Origin: Synoicihabitans lomoniglobus
Lineage (GTDB): Bacteria > Verrucomicrobiota > Verrucomicrobiia > Opitutales > Opitutaceae
Assembly: GCF_029023725.1 (NCBI RefSeq)
Contig: NZ_CP119075.1
Location: 4,087,501-4,151,500, forward strand
Length of the DNA stretch: 64,000 bases
Direction of reading: 5' to 3'
A model generated the notes under the pieces. The model made no database searches, was not told the origin of the DNA, and saw only the letters and a program-made list of their open reading frames with translations. How positions within the stretch are numbered: position 1 is the stretch's first letter; each line of letters begins with the position of its first letter. The position numbers and the translations under genes are program-made. Of this stretch, positions 27,619 to 41,903 are shown in pieces.

Positions 27619-27785
27619 ACCCCGGCAACTGGCGGCGGAGCGGGAGCGTTTCGCCCCTGTAAACTTCCCTTGGAGCCGATTAACCGGCACCTCTGCCGTG
27701 GGTTGTTGGCTTGAACCGAGACCGGGAGTCAGGCCCCATGTTCTCCGATTTCGTTAGTTCCCCTTGCCGCATCCCCCCCCTTCGC

Positions 27786-29468
27786 ATGCCCAAAGCCCGT
27801 TCGTTGTTCGCCCCTTTACTCCTCCTCTGCTTCGCCCTCACGTGCACGGCGGAGATCCCCTGGCTTGATTCCGTCGACGCCGGCCAAGCCGCCGCCGCGA
27901 AACGGGACCTGCCGCTTTACATCGCCGTCAGCGACCCGCTCAACGAACTCGATGGCGCGATGCATCGCCAGACGTTTGCCAACGCCGAAGTCGCGGCGTT
28001 TCTGCAGGCCAATTTTGTCTGCGTGCTCGTCAATCGCGACGCCGCTCCGGGTCTCGCTGCCTACGGTCAACAATGGCTCGCGGCGGATCAAAAAATCGCG
28101 GGCTGGCCACTCAATCTTTGGTTTACTCCCGAGCTCCAACCCATCGAGGGCGCGAGCTACCTGCCACCCACCGAAGAGTGGGGTCGCGAAGGCTTCATGG
28201 TCGTCGCCGGCCGGGTGGCCGAACGCTGGACCGCGGACGCGGGAGCCGTCCGTCGAGGCGCGGAAAATACCCAGCGCCTCATCGCCGACTACCTGCCCTT
28301 TGCCGCTGAACCGGTGGACGACTTGGCGGACGCCCTCCGGCTCGCCGCCGAAGACTGGATCGCCATCGCGCAACCCGAGACCGGCACATTTGGAGACGCG
28401 CCCCATCGCCTGGAACCAGAGTTGATCCGTTTCCTGATCGCCCGCGGCGGCGAAACCCGCGCGGTCGCCCTCGCGGCGTTGCGCACCCGTCTCACCAGCG
28501 CACTGCGCGACCCACTCGACGGCGGATTCTACCGCGCCACCGCCGACGGTGCCGGCGGCATTCCCGTTTTCCAAAAACGCCTCACCGATCAAGCCCGCAT
28601 CGCTTTGGCGTGCCTCGACGCAGCGGCCGTCGATGACGACCCCCTCTTCGCCGCCGGTGCGCGCAGCGCGCTGCAATATGTGATCAACCGCCTCAGTCCG
28701 AGCGACGGCACCTTCTACATCGGCGACGATGCCACCGAGTCGAGCGCGACCGCCGGGCAGACGTGGAGCTGGACCGAACTCGTCGACTTGGTGGGCGAGG
28801 ATTTTGCCGCGCAACTCGGGGCCAAACCGGACGGCAATGTCAATGCCGACGAAGACCTCGAAGGGCTGCACGCCGGACGCAACATCCTGCGCGCCTCCCC
28901 ACTCGCTCTGCCCGCCCGAGCCACCTTCGAGTCCCGCTCGAAACTCATCAGCGCTCGAGCCGCCCGCGCCCAGACTGTGGTCAAAACGATCGCCACCGCC
29001 GGTGCGCACGGCCTCATGTTGCACGCCATGCAACGAGCGGGCGATGAGCTGCAAGATCTCGATTTCGGCGCCTACGCGATTGCCATCCAAGCCACCCTCA
29101 AACGCGACTTCGGCGTCGGCACGGAATTCTTCTCCCGCATCGCGCGGACCGAGATCGCGCCCACCCCCGAAGATTATGTGCTCGTGGCGCTGGGCATGAA
29201 CGACGCCGCCCTCGCTGCCCGCGCCGACCAACTTTTCTTCGACGACGAATTTGCCCTCTACTACGCGACCGCCGACGAAGTGCTGGGCACGCGACCGGTT
29301 TGGTGGCAACCAACCAGCGGTGATTTGCCCGCCCCGTCGGTCTGGCGGCTCCTGCTCGACCACGCCCCCGCGGGTCTCGCCGCCGAGGTGGCCGCCCCGT
29401 TCGACAATCCCGATGTCCCGCCGCCGGGGGCAGTGCTCCTCGCGTTGCAACACACACTCACCGAGTAA
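27786..29468 (+). CDS. Secreted DUF255/thioredoxin-fold protein without CxxC motif
   Basis: 560 residues. A signal peptide (SLFAPLLLLCFALTCTAEIP) precedes a thioredoxin-like domain at about 25-140, then a long alpha-helical (alpha6/alpha6-type) region. The block VAAFLQANFVCVLVNRDAAP, IAGWPLNLWFTP and PIEGASYLPP aligns with the N terminus of the YyaL/SSP411 (DUF255) family. That family normally has CHWCHVM before MERESF. Here the site reads SDPLNELDGAMHRQTF, so both cysteines are gone and redox chemistry is unlikely. The upstream frame to 27711 is not protein-like. It ends 31 nt before the DUF4256 gene. Confidence 0.75.
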   Translation: MPKARSLFAPLLLLCFALTCTAEIPWLDSVDAGQAAAAKRDLPLYIAVSDPLNELDGAMHRQTFANAEVAAFLQANFVCVLVNRDAAPGLAAYGQQWLAADQKIAGWPLNLWFTPELQPIEGASYLPPTEEWGREGFMVVAGRVAERWTADAGAVRRGAENTQRLIADYLPFAAEPVDDLADALRLAAEDWIAIAQPETGTFGDAPHRLEPELIRFLIARGGETRAVALAALRTRLTSALRDPLDGGFYRATADGAGGIPVFQKRLTDQARIALACLDAAAVDDDPLFAAGARSALQYVINRLSPSDGTFYIGDDATESSATAGQTWSWTELVDLVGEDFAAQLGAKPDGNVNADEDLEGLHAGRNILRASPLALPARATFESRSKLISARAARAQTVVKTIATAGAHGLMLHAMQRAGDELQDLDFGAYAIAIQATLKRDFGVGTEFFSRIARTEIAPTPEDYVLVALGMNDAALAARADQLFFDDEFALYYATADEVLGTRPVWWQPTSGDLPAPSVWRLLLDHAPAGLAAEVAAPFDNPDVPPPGAVLLALQHTLTE

Positions 29469-29499: not shown

Positions 29500-30054
29500 A
29501 TGAAACCGCTCTCCTCCGCTCACCGTGCGACGCTGCTCGCCGCGCTGAAGGATCGTTTTCATCGGCACATGTCGCGCCATGAAGGCATCGTCTGGGCCGA
29601 TGTCGCCGCGCGACTGGAGGCGCAGCCGGACAAACTGTGGTCAATCCATCAGATGGAAACCACCGGCGGCGAACCCGACGTGATCAGCGCGGCCGATACC
29701 GCAGGCGAATACCGATTTGTGGACTGTTCGCCGCAAAGCCCCGCCGGGCGCGTCGGCTACTGCTACGACCGCGAAGCACTCGATTCCCGCAAAGCGCACA
29801 AACCGAAAAACTCCGTCATGGAGGTGGCGACCGCCATGGGCGTAAACTTGCTTTCGGAGACGCAATACCGGGCGCTGCAACGACTCGGGGAATTCGATAC
29901 GAAGTCGTCGAGTTGGATCGAGACTCCGGCCGACATTCGAAAACTCGGCGGTGCGCTGTTCGGCGATCGCCGCTTCGGCCATGTCTTCGTGTATCACAAC
30001 GGCGCTCAATCCTACTACAGTGGGCGGGGGTTTCGCGCGGCGCTGGTGGTTTAG
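29500..30054 (+). CDS. DUF4256 family protein
   Basis: 184 residues from the ATG at 29500. It matches the family core: LKDRFHRHMSRHEGIVW, LWSIHQMETTGGEPDV, YCYDREALDSRKAHKP, MGVNLLSETQYRALQ, the FDTKSSSWIETPADIRKLG block and a final VFVYHNGAQSYYSGRGFRA. No function is established for DUF4256. It is soluble, with no export signal. Because the match covers the whole length, the start is reliable. Confidence 0.88.
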   Translation: MKPLSSAHRATLLAALKDRFHRHMSRHEGIVWADVAARLEAQPDKLWSIHQMETTGGEPDVISAADTAGEYRFVDCSPQSPAGRVGYCYDREALDSRKAHKPKNSVMEVATAMGVNLLSETQYRALQRLGEFDTKSSSWIETPADIRKLGGALFGDRRFGHVFVYHNGAQSYYSGRGFRAALVV

Positions 30055-30252: not shown

Positions 30253-31431
30253 GTGAAGTCCCGGCGCGGATCGCTGCTCATCGCGTTGGGTCTGAGCCTC
30301 GGCAGCCCGACCACGTTGATGGTCAACGCCGCCCTGCCCGCCCTGTCCGCCGACGCCCCCCGGGCGCAAGGGGCGTTGGAGCTTCGTCGGATCGAGCTGA
30401 TGCCGCCGCGGGCCACTGTGGAAGCCTACGTGGATGCGTTTTCGACCCGAACCTGGCACATCGGGATCGCCACCCGCGGAGCCGCCATGGGCATGTTCCT
30501 GGGAATCGAATTGCGCCCGGACCTCCAACAGGAACTGTTCGATCCATCGAGCTGGCGACCGGACGAAATCCGGGGTGGTTTCATCGTCACTCCCAGCCCC
30601 CGACTGCTCACGCACATGACGGCGGCGGAACGCGCCGAATGCTATCAACTGCTGGCGCAGTGGCCGGCCAACAAACCCGAACGGTGGCCGTTGGTTGTGC
30701 CCGACGAGGCCGGATTCAATCGGCTGGAGCAGGCGGGCGTTCCCCGCGATCTCGTGCGTCGCGCCCGGGAATTGAGCTTCGCGTTTGCCGGTGGGTTCGC
30801 CCTCAGCGATTTCTCCGTGCTGGCGACGGAATTTCCGGATCGCACGATACTGGCGCACTTCCTCGAGGAGGTTTCGAAAGTGACGACGGTCCTGCCGCGA
30901 CTGAATCTTCAACACGTCCGTTCCCTCTCCGATACGCTGGCCTATTGGACGGTCGATCATCGCAACACCGCCGCGCTGCCTTTGCTCGAAGCCTTGATCG
31001 AGGCAGACACCGGCCGGGGCATCGAGTTGAGTGCCATCCTGCCGGGCACGGTGCGGGTGCTGCTCTTCAATCTTTCGCCCCTCGAAATCCACCGCGACAT
31101 CTCGACGACGAGTTACGTCATGGCAGCCAGCGTCGCCGCGCCCGGATACCGGTTCAGTCGATCCGAGCAGTTCCTGCCGTGGTTTCAGCAAAACTTCCCA
31201 CCCGTGGCCGGACCTCCGAAGTTTGGCGACGTCCTCGTGATGAGCGACGACACGGAATACCCACTGCCCTTCGCCTGCGCGTTCGTGGCCGACGATCTCG
31301 TTTTCACGCGCGATCCGGTGGGGCTCGGCGTGTGGCGATTCATGCGCATCGCCGAACTCGTCGGCCGCAACCCCCACTTTGCCGGACGGACCATTGTCAC
31401 GCATCGGCGCACAGGAGAGTCCCTCCCCTGA
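30253..31431 (+). CDS. Secreted protein, paralogue of the next gene, lacking a Cys/His site
   Basis: 392 residues from the GTG at 30253, which has a purine-rich GGGAAGGCGGAG before it and begins a signal peptide (MKSRRGSLLIALGLSLGSP). An in-frame ATG at 30175 gives a non-signal extension. The body aligns with the following protein in two stretches: TPSPRLLTHMTAAERAECYQ with its counterpart, and the C-terminal KFGDVLVMSDD...AFVADDLVFTRD. At the positions where the next protein has Cys301 and His366, this one has Thr/Ser near residue 287 and Phe (LPFACAFVADD). I know no named family for it. It is probably secreted and non-catalytic if the fold is protease-like. Confidence 0.7.
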   Translation: MKSRRGSLLIALGLSLGSPTTLMVNAALPALSADAPRAQGALELRRIELMPPRATVEAYVDAFSTRTWHIGIATRGAAMGMFLGIELRPDLQQELFDPSSWRPDEIRGGFIVTPSPRLLTHMTAAERAECYQLLAQWPANKPERWPLVVPDEAGFNRLEQAGVPRDLVRRARELSFAFAGGFALSDFSVLATEFPDRTILAHFLEEVSKVTTVLPRLNLQHVRSLSDTLAYWTVDHRNTAALPLLEALIEADTGRGIELSAILPGTVRVLLFNLSPLEIHRDISTTSYVMAASVAAPGYRFSRSEQFLPWFQQNFPPVAGPPKFGDVLVMSDDTEYPLPFACAFVADDLVFTRDPVGLGVWRFMRIAELVGRNPHFAGRTIVTHRRTGESLP

Positions 31432-31441
31432 TCTTGGAGCC

Positions 31442-32716
31442 ATGCCTCTCGAACTTCACATGCATAGGTTTCGCCGGGCGCTCGCGGCGGCGATCATCAT
31501 CGGAAGTGGGGTGACGGGCCCAGCGTTCGCCCAACCCTCCGAGTTGATTCCCCACCCCGACATCGAGGACCGCATCGTCAACGCCGCCCTGGAGCATACC
31601 GGGGCACCCGGTCCCTGGGGCACACTGCGCACCACCCGCCGTCGCCTCGTCGTTCCCGCCGCCACCCTCGCGACCATCAAACTACCTGAGACCGGAGTGT
31701 GGGGATTCTCGGGCGTCACTTGGGCGGAGATCGATGCACAATGGCAACGCGCCCCGCTGACCACCGCCGAACGAAAAATCCTGACCGATCCTGCGATCCG
31801 CCGCGACGATGATCCCTCCGGAATTCTGCTGCTCGATGTCCCTCCCGACCTGCGTTGGTCACTCAGCCCGACCGCACGCACCTTTATCTACGACTGGCTG
31901 GCGACATTTGACATCAATCAAGTCCACGTCTGGCCATTCGTGCTCCCGGCGACCGACGTCATCGAACGGGCGCAACTGTCTCCCCGACTGCGGGACGGAA
32001 TCGATCGTTTGGCCTACGAACGCGCCAACCGCCGATGCCTGGCCGATCCCGATTTGCTGGTGAGTTTGGCGTGGTCGGCGGAAGAGCTCCAAAGCCTCAA
32101 GCGCCTGTTGTGCTACGCCTACACCTTGACCGTCGAGCTCCTGCGCGACAGCGCCGTGGGCCGACCTGACGTGATCGACTACTGGTCGCAGGCCCCGGCC
32201 GATTCTACCCCGACATGGTGGCATGCGCTGGAACGCTCGCCCGAGTTGGAGTCGATCGACATTGCTCATTTTCTGCCGACCCTCCCGCAGTCGCTGCTCA
32301 ACACCTTTCCCGACGGCAAACACTGCCCCATCGACGCCAATTGTTTTTGGATCTCATTGAATTTTTTCCGACGGGAAACCAACGACCTCCTCCTGCCCTA
32401 CGCGCATGACAACGACCAAAGTGCCGAGGAAGCGGCGGCCGAGCTCACCCGCTACTATGATCAAGTCGAGGCGCCGTATCGATTCGGTGATGTCCTGAGT
32501 TTCACGGTGACGACGAACGCGACGACGGAGCTGGCCCACATGGTGGTGTATCTCGCCGACGACATCGTTCTCACCAAAAACGGTGCCGGCCACATGAGCC
32601 CCTTCATTCTGGCGCGCTTGGAGGATGTCGCCCGGGACTACGCGGGAGCGCGCGCGCTCCACGTGCAGGGTCACCGGCCCCGTCCGGGCTCCCCCGCGCT
32701 ACCGGCCCGGCGATGA
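31442..32716 (+). CDS. Secreted protein with papain-like/NlpC-like Cys-His signature, unknown function
   Basis: 424 residues from the ATG at 31442. A GGAG five bases before it and the signal peptide (FRRALAAAIIIGSGVTGPAFAQ) support this start. The C-terminal 140 residues contain Cys301 in DANCFWISLNFFRR, YRFGDVLSFTVTT, His366 in ELAHMVVYLADDIVLTKNG and a later His in GHMSPFILARLED. The order Cys at a helix start, then Gly-Asp strand, then His-x-x-x-Tyr-x-x-Asp, is that of papain-like (NlpC/P60, CHAP) hydrolases. The assignment is by pattern only. It lies 10 nt after its paralogue. Its 3' end overlaps the convergent lipoprotein gene by 18 nt. Confidence 0.7.
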   Translation: MPLELHMHRFRRALAAAIIIGSGVTGPAFAQPSELIPHPDIEDRIVNAALEHTGAPGPWGTLRTTRRRLVVPAATLATIKLPETGVWGFSGVTWAEIDAQWQRAPLTTAERKILTDPAIRRDDDPSGILLLDVPPDLRWSLSPTARTFIYDWLATFDINQVHVWPFVLPATDVIERAQLSPRLRDGIDRLAYERANRRCLADPDLLVSLAWSAEELQSLKRLLCYAYTLTVELLRDSAVGRPDVIDYWSQAPADSTPTWWHALERSPELESIDIAHFLPTLPQSLLNTFPDGKHCPIDANCFWISLNFFRRETNDLLLPYAHDNDQSAEEAAAELTRYYDQVEAPYRFGDVLSFTVTTNATTELAHMVVYLADDIVLTKNGAGHMSPFILARLEDVARDYAGARALHVQGHRPRPGSPALPARR

Positions 32717-38180: not shown

Positions 38181-41100
38181 ATGTTTCCCCATCGCGCCTG
38201 CCCCCTTTGGAGCGTGCTGTTCGCCGCCATCGCGACCGCGCAATCGCCCGCCGAGTTCGCCGCCACCCCGTTGGCTCCCCGCTCGCGCGCACCCGACGCG
38301 CACGGTCCGATGTTCACCCCGCTCTCCCCGGCTGAGACTGGCATCGACGCGCCCAACGCTTACGACGATCCACTCATGTGGAGTCGGCACTACCGCGAGT
38401 TTTCGATCGGCGCCATCGGCACGGGTCTCGCCGCCGGAGACGTCGATGGTGACGGCCGACCCGACTTGTTCATCGTCAATAAGTGCGGCCCCAACCGCCT
38501 TTACCGCAACCTCGGTGACTTCCGCTTCGAGGACATCACCGCCACCGCCGGAGTGGCCGGTCCCACCGAACCCGAATACTGGCAACAGGGCGCCGCCTTC
38601 GCCGACATCGACAACGACGGCGACCTCGATCTCCACGTCTGCCGGTGGAACGCCCCCAACCTCCTCTACCTCAACGACGGCACCGGCCACTTCACCGAGG
38701 AAGCCGCCGCCCGCGGGCTCGCCGTTACCACCGCCTCCTCGCAAATCCATTTCGCCGACATGGACAATGACGGCGACCTCGACGCCTACCTGCAGACCAA
38801 TCTGCTCAACGGCGAAGCCCGCCCCAACGGCGAACCCGACTTCTTCTTCGCCAACGACGGCACCGGTCACTTCACCGACATCACCGCCGAGATCGGCGTG
38901 AGCGGCGACACCCAGGGCCACTCCGCCACGTGGTGGGACTACGACGGCGACGGCTACCTCGATCTCTACGTCGCCAACGACTTCAAGGATCCCGACACCC
39001 TCTACCACAACGACTACTTCCTCAACGCCGGCCGACCCGACCCCGCTGAACTCAAACGCCGCAGGGACGCCTCGCGAGCGGAGCGACGCCAACGCCTGGC
39101 CGACGGCCTGCCACCGCGCTTCGGACGGCGCCTTGAAAACACCCTGTCCTACGTCGTCCCCCACACCCCGCACTCGTCCATGGGCGCTGACTTCGGCGAC
39201 CTCGACAACGACGGCCGCATGGACCTTGTCATCGCCGACATGGCCGCCACCTCCCGCGAAAAATCGCAACGCGGCATGGCCAGCATTCGCGCCAACATGC
39301 CGGCGATGAACCATCACCCCGGCGTGGCGCCCCAACTCATGCGCAACGCCGTCTACCTCAACCGCCACGACGGTCGCATGCATGAGGTCGCCCACCTCAC
39401 CGGATTGGCCGCCTCGGACTGGACGTGGACCGTGCGTCTGGAAGACTTCGACAACGACGGCCACACCGACGCCTTCTTCACCAACGGCATGGTGCGGGAA
39501 CTGCACAACACCGACATCACCTCCCGTATGCAGCGCTCGGAAAGCATGAGCCAGCGCACCCGCATCATGCGCGCCACGCCCCCGCTCGCGGAAGCCAACC
39601 TCGCCTTCCGCAACCTCGGCGATCTCGCCTTCGCCGACGTATCCAAAGAATGGGGACTTAATCACCTCGGCGTGTCCTTCGGGGCGGTCACCGCCGACTT
39701 CGACGGCGACGGCGACCTCGATCTGGTGTTCTCCAACTACGACGCCCCGGCCACCGTGCTGCGCAACGACAGCGCGACCGGCCATCGTGTCACCATCAGC
39801 CTGCGAGGGGGAAAACTGCGGCAGTCATCGGCCAATGCGGTGGCGACCCTGCTCGACACCGGAACATATAGTCCGGGTATGGGCAGCGCCAACGCGCAGG
39901 GCATCGGCGCCACGGTCACGATCAGGACATCCGTCGGCTCACAGACCCGCACCCTGATCACGCAGCGCGGTTACCTCTCCTCGCAGCAGCCGCTGCTACA
40001 CTTCGGTCTCGGCGACGCGACGACGATCGACTCTCTCACCATCAAGTGGGGCCAGGGCGACCCGGACGTTTATACCAATCTGCCGGTCGATCAGCACTTC
40101 ACGATCACGCAACAAACCCGCCACAGCATGACCATGAGTTACGCGGACGGCCCCACGCTCTTCCACGACTCCGCCCCCGACTTCGGCCTCCAGGTCACCT
40201 CCGTCGAAGACAACACCGCGCCTTTCCCACAAGCGACCGAACTGCCTTTCCGCGTCGACCGCTTCGGACCCGGCGTGGCCGTCGGCGACATCAATGGCGA
40301 CGGCATCGACGACGTGATCGTCGGGGGCACGGTCGGACACCCGGGCGAAGTGCGCAGCTCCATTGCGCCCCGCGAATGGGCGCCGTCCAACTTCACGCTG
40401 TTCAGCGGCACCACCGCCACCGCCGACGCCCAGCCCCTGCTCGTCGAAATCAACGGCGACGGTCATCTCGACTTGCTGCTGCCCCAAACCGGCACCGCCC
40501 GACCCGCCGGCGACCCGGCCTACCAACCGCACGCGTTTCTCAACGATGGTCTCGGCGGCTTCGATCGTGCGTCGGCCGATCTGCTCCCGTCCTTGCCGCT
40601 CAGTGTCGGCGCGGCCGTGGCGGCCGACTTCGATCGCGATGGCCACATGGATGTGTTTCTCGGCGCCCGCCAGATTCCCGGACGCTATCCGCAACCGGCC
40701 GACAGTGCGCTGCTGCTCCATCGGGCGGGTCGCTTCATCAACGCCACTGCCACCCACGCTCCCATGCTCGCCGGCATCGGACTCGTGACTTCCGCGCTCG
40801 CCACCGATGTCGACGACGACGGCTGGCTCGACCTGTTGCTCGCCCGCGATTGGGGCACGGTGGTGTATCTCCACAACGACGCCGGCCAAGGTTTCACCGA
40901 TCAATCCGACGCCGCCGGATTCAGCGCCGCCGGTGCGGGTTGGTGGAACTCGCTCGCCGCCGCCGATTTCAACGGCGACGGCCGCATGGACTACGCCGTC
41001 GGCAATCTCGGTCTCAACACGCCCTACGTCGCTCCCGTCACCATGCTGCATGGCCCCTTCGCCCCCGACGGCACCGACCTGCTGATCGAAACCGTGTCGG

Positions 41101-41903
41101 AAGGCGGACAACTCTACCCCCGTCGTTCGCTCACCGTGCTGGGCGCGCAGATTCCAGCTCTCAAACGACAGTTCCGCCATCACGACGATTACGCCGTCAC
41201 CCCGCTCACCGATATGCTCGACGCAGCCACCTTGGCGGCCGCCACGCGCTTCACCGCCACGGAGCTGCGCAGCGGGGTGTTTTTGAGCCAGGCCGACGGC
41301 ACGCACGAGTTCCGAGCCTTGCCACGCTTCGCGCAGATTGCGCCGACCTACGGACTCGTCACCGCCGACTTCAACGGCGACACCTTCACCGATCTCGCCG
41401 GAGGGCAAAACCTCTACAACGTTCGCCCGGAAACCGGACGCTTTGACGGCGGCCTGGGCTTCATTCTCCACGGTGACGGCCAAGGTGGATTCACTGTCGA
41501 AGAACAGAATCAACCCACCATCCCGCACGACGCCAAGGGCCTCGCCTTGATCGACCTCCACCGTTTTGGTCGGCCGCAACTCTATGTCACCCGCAACAAC
41601 GACAGCACCATGGCGATCAACGCCGGTTATCGGCAAGGCATGGGCGTCCAACTCCTCGGTCCGCCCGCCAACCCCACCGGCGTGGGCACGCGCATCACGG
41701 TCGTCTACGCCGATGATCACCGGACCATGAGCGAAGTCGCGGCCGGCGGCGGCCATCGCAGCCAGTCCACCGCCACGGCGTTCCTGAGCTACGATGCCGA
41801 AACTCCGCCACGCGAGATCATCTTTCGTTGGCCCAACGGCACCTCCAACACCTTGCCTTGGCCCACCGAACCACCCCGCATTCTAAAAGTCCGCATCCCC
41901 TGA
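38181..41903 (+). CDS. Secreted CRTAC1-like protein with two FG-GAP/ASPIC modules
   Basis: 1240 residues. A signal peptide (LWSVLFAAIATAQS) is followed by two complete modules. Module one (about 40-650) has FG-GAP loops DVDGDGRPDLF, DIDNDGDLDLH, DMDNDGDLDAY, DYDGDGYLDLY, DLDNDGRMDLV and DFDGDGDLDLV, ending in an ASPIC/UnbV domain (IGATVTIRTSVGSQTRTL, FGLGDATTIDSLTIKWGQG). Module two (about 650-1240) has DINGDGIDDVIV, DFDRDGHMDVFL, DVDDDGWLDLLL, DFNGDGRMDYAV, DFNGDTFTDLAG and a final ASPIC domain (REIIFRWPNGTSNTLPW). These calcium-binding propellers are secreted or surface proteins; ligand unknown. TAGGTT nine bases before the ATG may be a -10 element. Confidence 0.9.
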   Translation: MFPHRACPLWSVLFAAIATAQSPAEFAATPLAPRSRAPDAHGPMFTPLSPAETGIDAPNAYDDPLMWSRHYREFSIGAIGTGLAAGDVDGDGRPDLFIVNKCGPNRLYRNLGDFRFEDITATAGVAGPTEPEYWQQGAAFADIDNDGDLDLHVCRWNAPNLLYLNDGTGHFTEEAAARGLAVTTASSQIHFADMDNDGDLDAYLQTNLLNGEARPNGEPDFFFANDGTGHFTDITAEIGVSGDTQGHSATWWDYDGDGYLDLYVANDFKDPDTLYHNDYFLNAGRPDPAELKRRRDASRAERRQRLADGLPPRFGRRLENTLSYVVPHTPHSSMGADFGDLDNDGRMDLVIADMAATSREKSQRGMASIRANMPAMNHHPGVAPQLMRNAVYLNRHDGRMHEVAHLTGLAASDWTWTVRLEDFDNDGHTDAFFTNGMVRELHNTDITSRMQRSESMSQRTRIMRATPPLAEANLAFRNLGDLAFADVSKEWGLNHLGVSFGAVTADFDGDGDLDLVFSNYDAPATVLRNDSATGHRVTISLRGGKLRQSSANAVATLLDTGTYSPGMGSANAQGIGATVTIRTSVGSQTRTLITQRGYLSSQQPLLHFGLGDATTIDSLTIKWGQGDPDVYTNLPVDQHFTITQQTRHSMTMSYADGPTLFHDSAPDFGLQVTSVEDNTAPFPQATELPFRVDRFGPGVAVGDINGDGIDDVIVGGTVGHPGEVRSSIAPREWAPSNFTLFSGTTATADAQPLLVEINGDGHLDLLLPQTGTARPAGDPAYQPHAFLNDGLGGFDRASADLLPSLPLSVGAAVAADFDRDGHMDVFLGARQIPGRYPQPADSALLLHRAGRFINATATHAPMLAGIGLVTSALATDVDDDGWLDLLLARDWGTVVYLHNDAGQGFTDQSDAAGFSAAGAGWWNSLAAADFNGDGRMDYAVGNLGLNTPYVAPVTMLHGPFAPDGTDLLIETVSEGGQLYPRRSLTVLGAQIPALKRQFRHHDDYAVTPLTDMLDAATLAAATRFTATELRSGVFLSQADGTHEFRALPRFAQIAPTYGLVTADFNGDTFTDLAGGQNLYNVRPETGRFDGGLGFILHGDGQGGFTVEEQNQPTIPHDAKGLALIDLHRFGRPQLYVTRNNDSTMAINAGYRQGMGVQLLGPPANPTGVGTRITVVYADDHRTMSEVAAGGGHRSQSTATAFLSYDAETPPREIIFRWPNGTSNTLPWPTEPPRILKVRIP

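Follow-up and report, generated by a model that had tools for sequence, protein, structure and literature searches.

Two adjacent genes in the window, the whole 64,000-nucleotide stretch of Synoicihabitans lomoniglobus DNA that was analysed, probably encode a secreted NlpC/P60-like cysteine hydrolase (P2) and a dedicated pseudoenzyme partner (P1) that would regulate P2 or position its substrate. Judged from the sequences, both belong to an unnamed family of secreted-looking paralogues in Verrucomicrobiota. More broadly, we lean slightly towards a widespread two-subunit extracytoplasmic cysteine hydrolase in Verrucomicrobiota, one subunit of which would have been made dead several times independently by different substitutions (Ile/Phe, Asp, Trp/Ser/Gly/His), the dead paralogue being a working part and not a remnant. 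The features, in order along the window, are as follows.

27783..29468, + strand: DUF255-type protein without CxxC; upstream context, not a required part
29500-30054: DUF4256 protein between the DUF255 gene and P1 (E 3e-81)
30253..31431, + strand: P1, secreted-looking family member lacking the Cys and His (pseudoenzyme); 392 aa, GTG start
30937..31419, + strand: NlpC/P60-like domain of P1 without catalytic Cys and His, residues 229-389, from model and fold comparison
31099..31101, + strand: Ile283 codon of P1, opposite Cys301 in the MAFFT alignment
31270..31272, + strand: Phe340 codon of P1, opposite His366 in the alignments
31442..32716, + strand: P2, secreted-looking intact member (putative cysteine hydrolase); 424 aa
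32168..32692, + strand: predicted NlpC/P60-like catalytic domain of P2, residues 243-417, from model and fold comparison
32342..32344, + strand: Cys301 codon of P2, presumed nucleophile; invariant
32537..32539, + strand: His366 codon of P2, presumed base; invariant
32579..32581, + strand: Asn380 codon of P2, candidate third catalytic residue (Asn in 215 of 216 intact rows)

The two open reading frames lie side by side on the same strand, with 10 bases between the P1 stop and the P2 start, where a preliminary description of this DNA had placed them. Its view of the pair as paralogues is borne out by homology across 358 aa (23% identity, E 3e-12), and both N-termini, judged by eye, look like signal peptides, as it had stated. 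Cys301 and His366 of P2 were found exactly where it had put them, and both are invariant in 19 of 19, and then in 81 of 81, aligned intact-type rows, which excludes a family alignment in which neither residue is conserved. For P1 it had given Ser/Thr and Phe at the site: Phe340 does take the place of His, but the Ser/Thr depends on the alignment, with Ser opposite Cys301 in the profile alignment and Ile283 in the MAFFT alignment, where the preceding Asp is aligned. The only Cys residues of P1 are at positions 130 and 342, and P1 keeps a Gly-Asp motif (Gly325-Asp326), which is placed by a survey of papain-like proteins (PMC10318531) among the features of the cluster of NlpC/P60, CHAP and amidase proteins. 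Across intact rows of the family, the Asp of this motif is present in 217 of 217 and the Gly in 207 of 217.

The model of mature P2 (pLDDT 89.1, pTM 0.87) places C271 (= Cys301) as the first residue of a helix (271-276) and H336 (= His366) in a strand (331-342). Comparison of the modelled C-terminal domain (residues 213-387) with known folds, as the preliminary description had proposed, gave NlpC/P60 hydrolases as the best matches (top match 3h41, Z 8.9, 3.1 Å over 114 residues), with 29 chains at Z >= 8, among them MepS, CwlO, SagA, Spr and the non-catalytic RipD. This predicted match speaks against Cys301 and His366 lying far apart, and the papain-like character proposed for P2 is well supported by the NlpC/P60-like predicted fold and the conserved Cys and His. 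The model of mature P1 (pLDDT 87.6, pTM 0.84) keeps the fold and matches the same class (8tw1, Z 8.1; 4xcm, Z 7.4), with one chain only at Z >= 8. Foldseek searches with the P2 and P1 models returned no match at E 0.001 or better; for P1, 4xcm was matched at E 0.036.

Neither protein had a match in Pfam or NCBIfam at E 10, or in PHROGs or PADLOC, and P2 had none among PDB sequences. The NLPC_P60 profile PF00877 did not match P1 or P2 at E 10 and was listed for none of the 81 aligned members, among which scattered weak Pfam matches were common to no more than three members each. Clavaminate synthase, one weak match of the P2 profile (E 2.6), was set aside as unrelated. Four family members were found in the window's genome (a single contig of 5.93 Mb). 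P2 matches were found in 29 of 273 genomes of the order, and across the phylum a 19-row profile found matches in 31 of 387 genomes. Scanning named contigs for motifs yielded 350 relatives, of which 80 were kept to make, with P2, the 81-row set; these 80 were found with two motifs, one including the Cys, so that lone Cys-less copies could escape. The whole-genome searches used no Cys motif, with only a few candidates per genome scored in the large ones. By their titles, all 80 come from Verrucomicrobiota lineages, save one bin labelled Polynucleobacter, and a search of the 80 loci for a common neighbour found only what looks like lineage synteny. At E 0.001, PF00877 was not found in the window's genome or in seven other searched genomes of its genus. 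Of the relatives as a whole, 2 of 19 had a match, and of the control genomes, 9 of 14 did. Since PF00877 was not found in the genus, the family may supply the NlpC/P60-type activity of these genomes, a suggestion that covers PF00877 only among the families of the class.

Pairs of the window's kind were found in five genomes, two as tandem genes and three as fusions, one of the three in reverse order. In the other tandem genome (G126), P1 precedes P2 as in the window, and the two genes share four bases where P1 stops and P2 starts. Single open frames with strong P1-like scores run from dead half to live half in G080 and from live half to dead half in G602, and in G632 a single open frame has a distant P1-like protein followed by a live half. 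In a 54-row tree one branch (97/95) sets the five dead halves apart, and another (95/78) does so for the five live halves; G632 is a long branch, and its grouping with the Opitutaceae dead clade may be wrong. Within the genus, both halves are present in 3 of 8 genomes and neither in 5 of 8 (two of the five being 69% and 82% complete).

The linkage of dead to live copies holds across several lineages. After 4 of 229 distinct stretches that did not cover the site were dropped, 225 distinct members remained, 217 with Cys and His and 8 without. All 8 degenerate members are either fused to an intact member or have one within 1 kb, versus 13 of the 217 intact members with a family neighbour (Fisher 1.4e-9, which treats related rows as independent; most flanks scanned spanned 1.5-2 kb, some being cut short by the contig end). 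Outside the window's kind, the substitutions differ from case to case: G1036 has Trp in place of Cys, and in G842 (L238, G842:C413) a 3.2 kb contig carries an Asp/Ser and an Asp/Thr copy flanking a live copy divided between two frames, the split being either a sequencing error or a real break. The array was found in no second genome among the 7 of the family of G842. Its dead copies have lost Asn together with Cys and His, and this pattern of loss makes Asn380 the likely third catalytic residue of P2. In one family of genomes, f147, into which G1036 was followed (74 genomes, 34 with matches), 97 members cover the site, 66 with the Cys and 31 without, and three truncated second copies could not be scored. 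The Cys position of the 31 is occupied by Trp (14), Ser (12), Gly (4) or His (1). Each of the 31 is immediately preceded by an intact copy upstream, and 14-170 bases separate the domains. Of the 31, 30 retain His and 28 retain Asn, and because both are mostly kept, some of the Ser forms may not be dead. The same arrangement occurs in G1128 with both Cys intact, the second copy grouping among the Cys-less ones in the tree, and the remaining f147 tandems are live-live. Longer arrays were seen in G1086 (L349, G1086:C107; four copies in a row, live-dead-live-dead) and G1066 (L347, G1066:C17; three copies, live-live-dead), and in G1070 (G1070:C183:7420-8544) the live copy of the pair lies within an 847-codon open frame. 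Overall, the Cys is missing from 38 of the 320 members scored at the site, and 8 of these have lost the His as well; all 38 adjoin or are fused to an intact copy. The 320 comprise sets of 223 and 97 members, each de-duplicated, with G1036 left out as the only cross-set check. The finding of dead copies exclusively next to live ones, or in fusion with them, suggests a single working unit. With Trp, Ser, Gly, His, Asp and hydrophobic residues all filling the Cys position of the partner, selection seems to be for loss of the nucleophile and not for one new residue.

A 59-row tree needs three changes of state, with a single change sufficing in 0 of 200 bootstrap trees, and a quick 83-row tree that includes f147 needs four; the starred (firm) branches alone force two changes in either tree, a change being a gain or a loss. 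P1 is under purifying constraint. When four genomes were compared in six pairs, identities were 0.43-0.48 and dN 0.50-0.59 for the dead half, versus 0.34-0.43 and 0.58-0.76 for the live half. The dead half thus changes more slowly in all six pairs, which are not independent; dS is near saturation, making dN/dS a rough guide only. In f147, similarity is higher between partners than between live copies in 384 of 465 comparisons. The live and dead distance matrices have a correlation of 0.90 (0 of 5000 permutations), in part through shared species history, and in only 17 of 31 pairs do the live copy and its partner have the same single nearest relative. Counts of changed near-invariant positions were 4/27 in the Asp/Ser copy of G842 (the Cys, His, Thr and Asn of the site), 7/21 in its Asp/Thr copy, 2/29 in G1036 (one being the Cys), 7/23 in P1, 8/21 in G602, 8/21 in G126 and 12/25 in G632; the G080 row (11 positions, 0 changes) does not reach the site cleanly and was left out.

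On the reading that we prefer, P2 would be an NlpC/P60-class cysteine hydrolase, either secreted or located in the periplasm. Cys301 would serve as its nucleophile and His366 as its base, and Asn380 would probably be the third residue. Going by the class, its substrate would most likely be peptidoglycan or another wall amide, attacked via Cys301. P1 would be a paralogue that has kept the fold and the N-terminal domain and lost the catalytic residues, and the linkage and fusions point to a live-dead complex in which it may regulate P2 or position the substrate. We infer catalysis, the substrate, physical contact between the two proteins, and an activating or restraining effect of P1 on P2 from these observations. 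The active/inactive couple raised in the preliminary description is well supported by dead copies found only adjoining or fused to live ones, and by a strongly constrained dead half. Counted against this reading are the lack of a Pfam NlpC/P60 profile match, the lack of a Foldseek match at E <= 0.001, the best Z of 8.1 for P1, the retention of His and Asn in f147, the long branch of G632, the lack of a second G842-type array among the 7 genomes of that family, and the nearest-relative agreement in 17 of 31 pairs.

It is unlikely that P1 is instead an independent, non-catalytic wall-binding protein of the RipD kind that merely shares an operon with P2. RipD is described (PMC12067865) as a non-catalytic NlpC/P60 protein that binds peptidoglycan, it is among the fold matches of both P2 and P1, and the strong constraint on P1 would suit such a role, but none of the 38 Cys-less members stands alone, three are fused to a live half, and the halves are co-present or co-absent in the genus. 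A dedicated inhibitor, restraining a dangerous wall hydrolase until its release, would fit the linkage and the constraint, and in the window P1 would be made before P2; against it, no other family member is in view near 204 of the 217 intact members, covalent fusion complicates the idea of a releasable inhibitor, and the existence of both fusion orders lowers the likelihood of a removable one, so that we hold this explanation to be improbable. Decay of tandem duplicates, with adjacency merely reflecting duplication, draws on the commonness of tandem duplication in the family and the existence of live-live neighbours, but it is very improbable in view of the open full-length frames with 43-48% identity between genomes, the slower change of the dead half, the fusions, and the near-complete dead copy of G842, in which three of the four changed near-invariant positions are presumed catalytic residues. 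Activity of P1-type proteins through another nucleophile, for which the Ser of 12 of the 31 f147 partners and papain-like families with Ser replacing Cys reported in a survey (PMC10318531) could be cited, is scarcely credible given Trp, Gly or His in the other f147 partners (14, 4 and 1 of 31) and the lack of both Cys and His at the site in P1.

Measured against known members of the NlpC/P60 class (3h41, MepS/Spr, CwlO, SagA; DUF1460 amidase 4h4j), P2 shares the predicted C-terminal fold with Cys at a helix start and His on a strand, the Gly-Asp motif before strand 1, and a secreted location suggested by the look of its N-terminus; unlike them, it has no Pfam match, carries a conserved N-terminal domain of about 190 residues, has Asn and not His as its likely third residue, and is paired with a Cys-less paralogue. 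P1 resembles RipD (Rv1566c) in having an NlpC/P60 domain that has lost its catalytic residues, and differs in setting: the RipD gene is described (PMC12067865) as adjoining biotin and trehalose genes in most pathogens, and it is not in tandem with, or fused to, a live close paralogue. A likeness of working, not of kinship, is offered by prozyme, described (PMC5201418) as a dead partner that activates the live trypanosome AdoMet decarboxylase; like P1 it is a dead paralogue serving as dedicated partner of a live one, and unlike P1 it belongs to a different enzyme, in a eukaryote, with activation demonstrated. Non-catalytic NlpC/P60 proteins and dead paralogues that activate live ones are thus already known, and the literature searched yielded neither the unnamed family nor its repeated pairing of live with dead copies in tandem or by fusion. 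What the family adds is a Verrucomicrobiota group that no Pfam or NCBIfam model covers, together with a natural series of lone live copies, live-live tandems, live-dead tandems and live-dead fusions in both orders, which allows a direct test of why enzyme families retain dead copies.

The neighbouring genes, DUF255 without CxxC and DUF4256, are as the preliminary description had them. The DUF255 gene adjoins the pair in three genomes of the genus. As an obligatory third member it was rejected: G600 has DUF255 and no family member, G599 has DUF255 with only a lone member on a different contig, and the fused pairs of G080 and G632 have no DUF255 match in the 14-15 kb examined. The DUF255/Thioredox_DsbH-type protein has no CxxC in the aligned stretch at 12 loci (the window, four at 57-66% and seven at 39-43% identity), and the lack of this motif at all 12 points to an older Cys-less subfamily. 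The DUF4256 gene is missing from that place in G126 and G602. An FG-GAP/UnbV-ASPIC protein is encoded 5' of the DUF255 gene in G126 (L181 542-3919) and, by similarity, in G602 (L182 18-2141), and a relative lies in the window at 38181-41903, 5.5 kb downstream of P2. In G126 (L181 8334-10310) and G602 (L182 6575-8152) the gene 3' of the pair is of the DUF294 nucleotidyltransferase type and includes a cyclic-nucleotide-binding domain, and in G600, which has no pair, a DUF294-like gene directly follows the DUF255 gene (L190 3239-4636).
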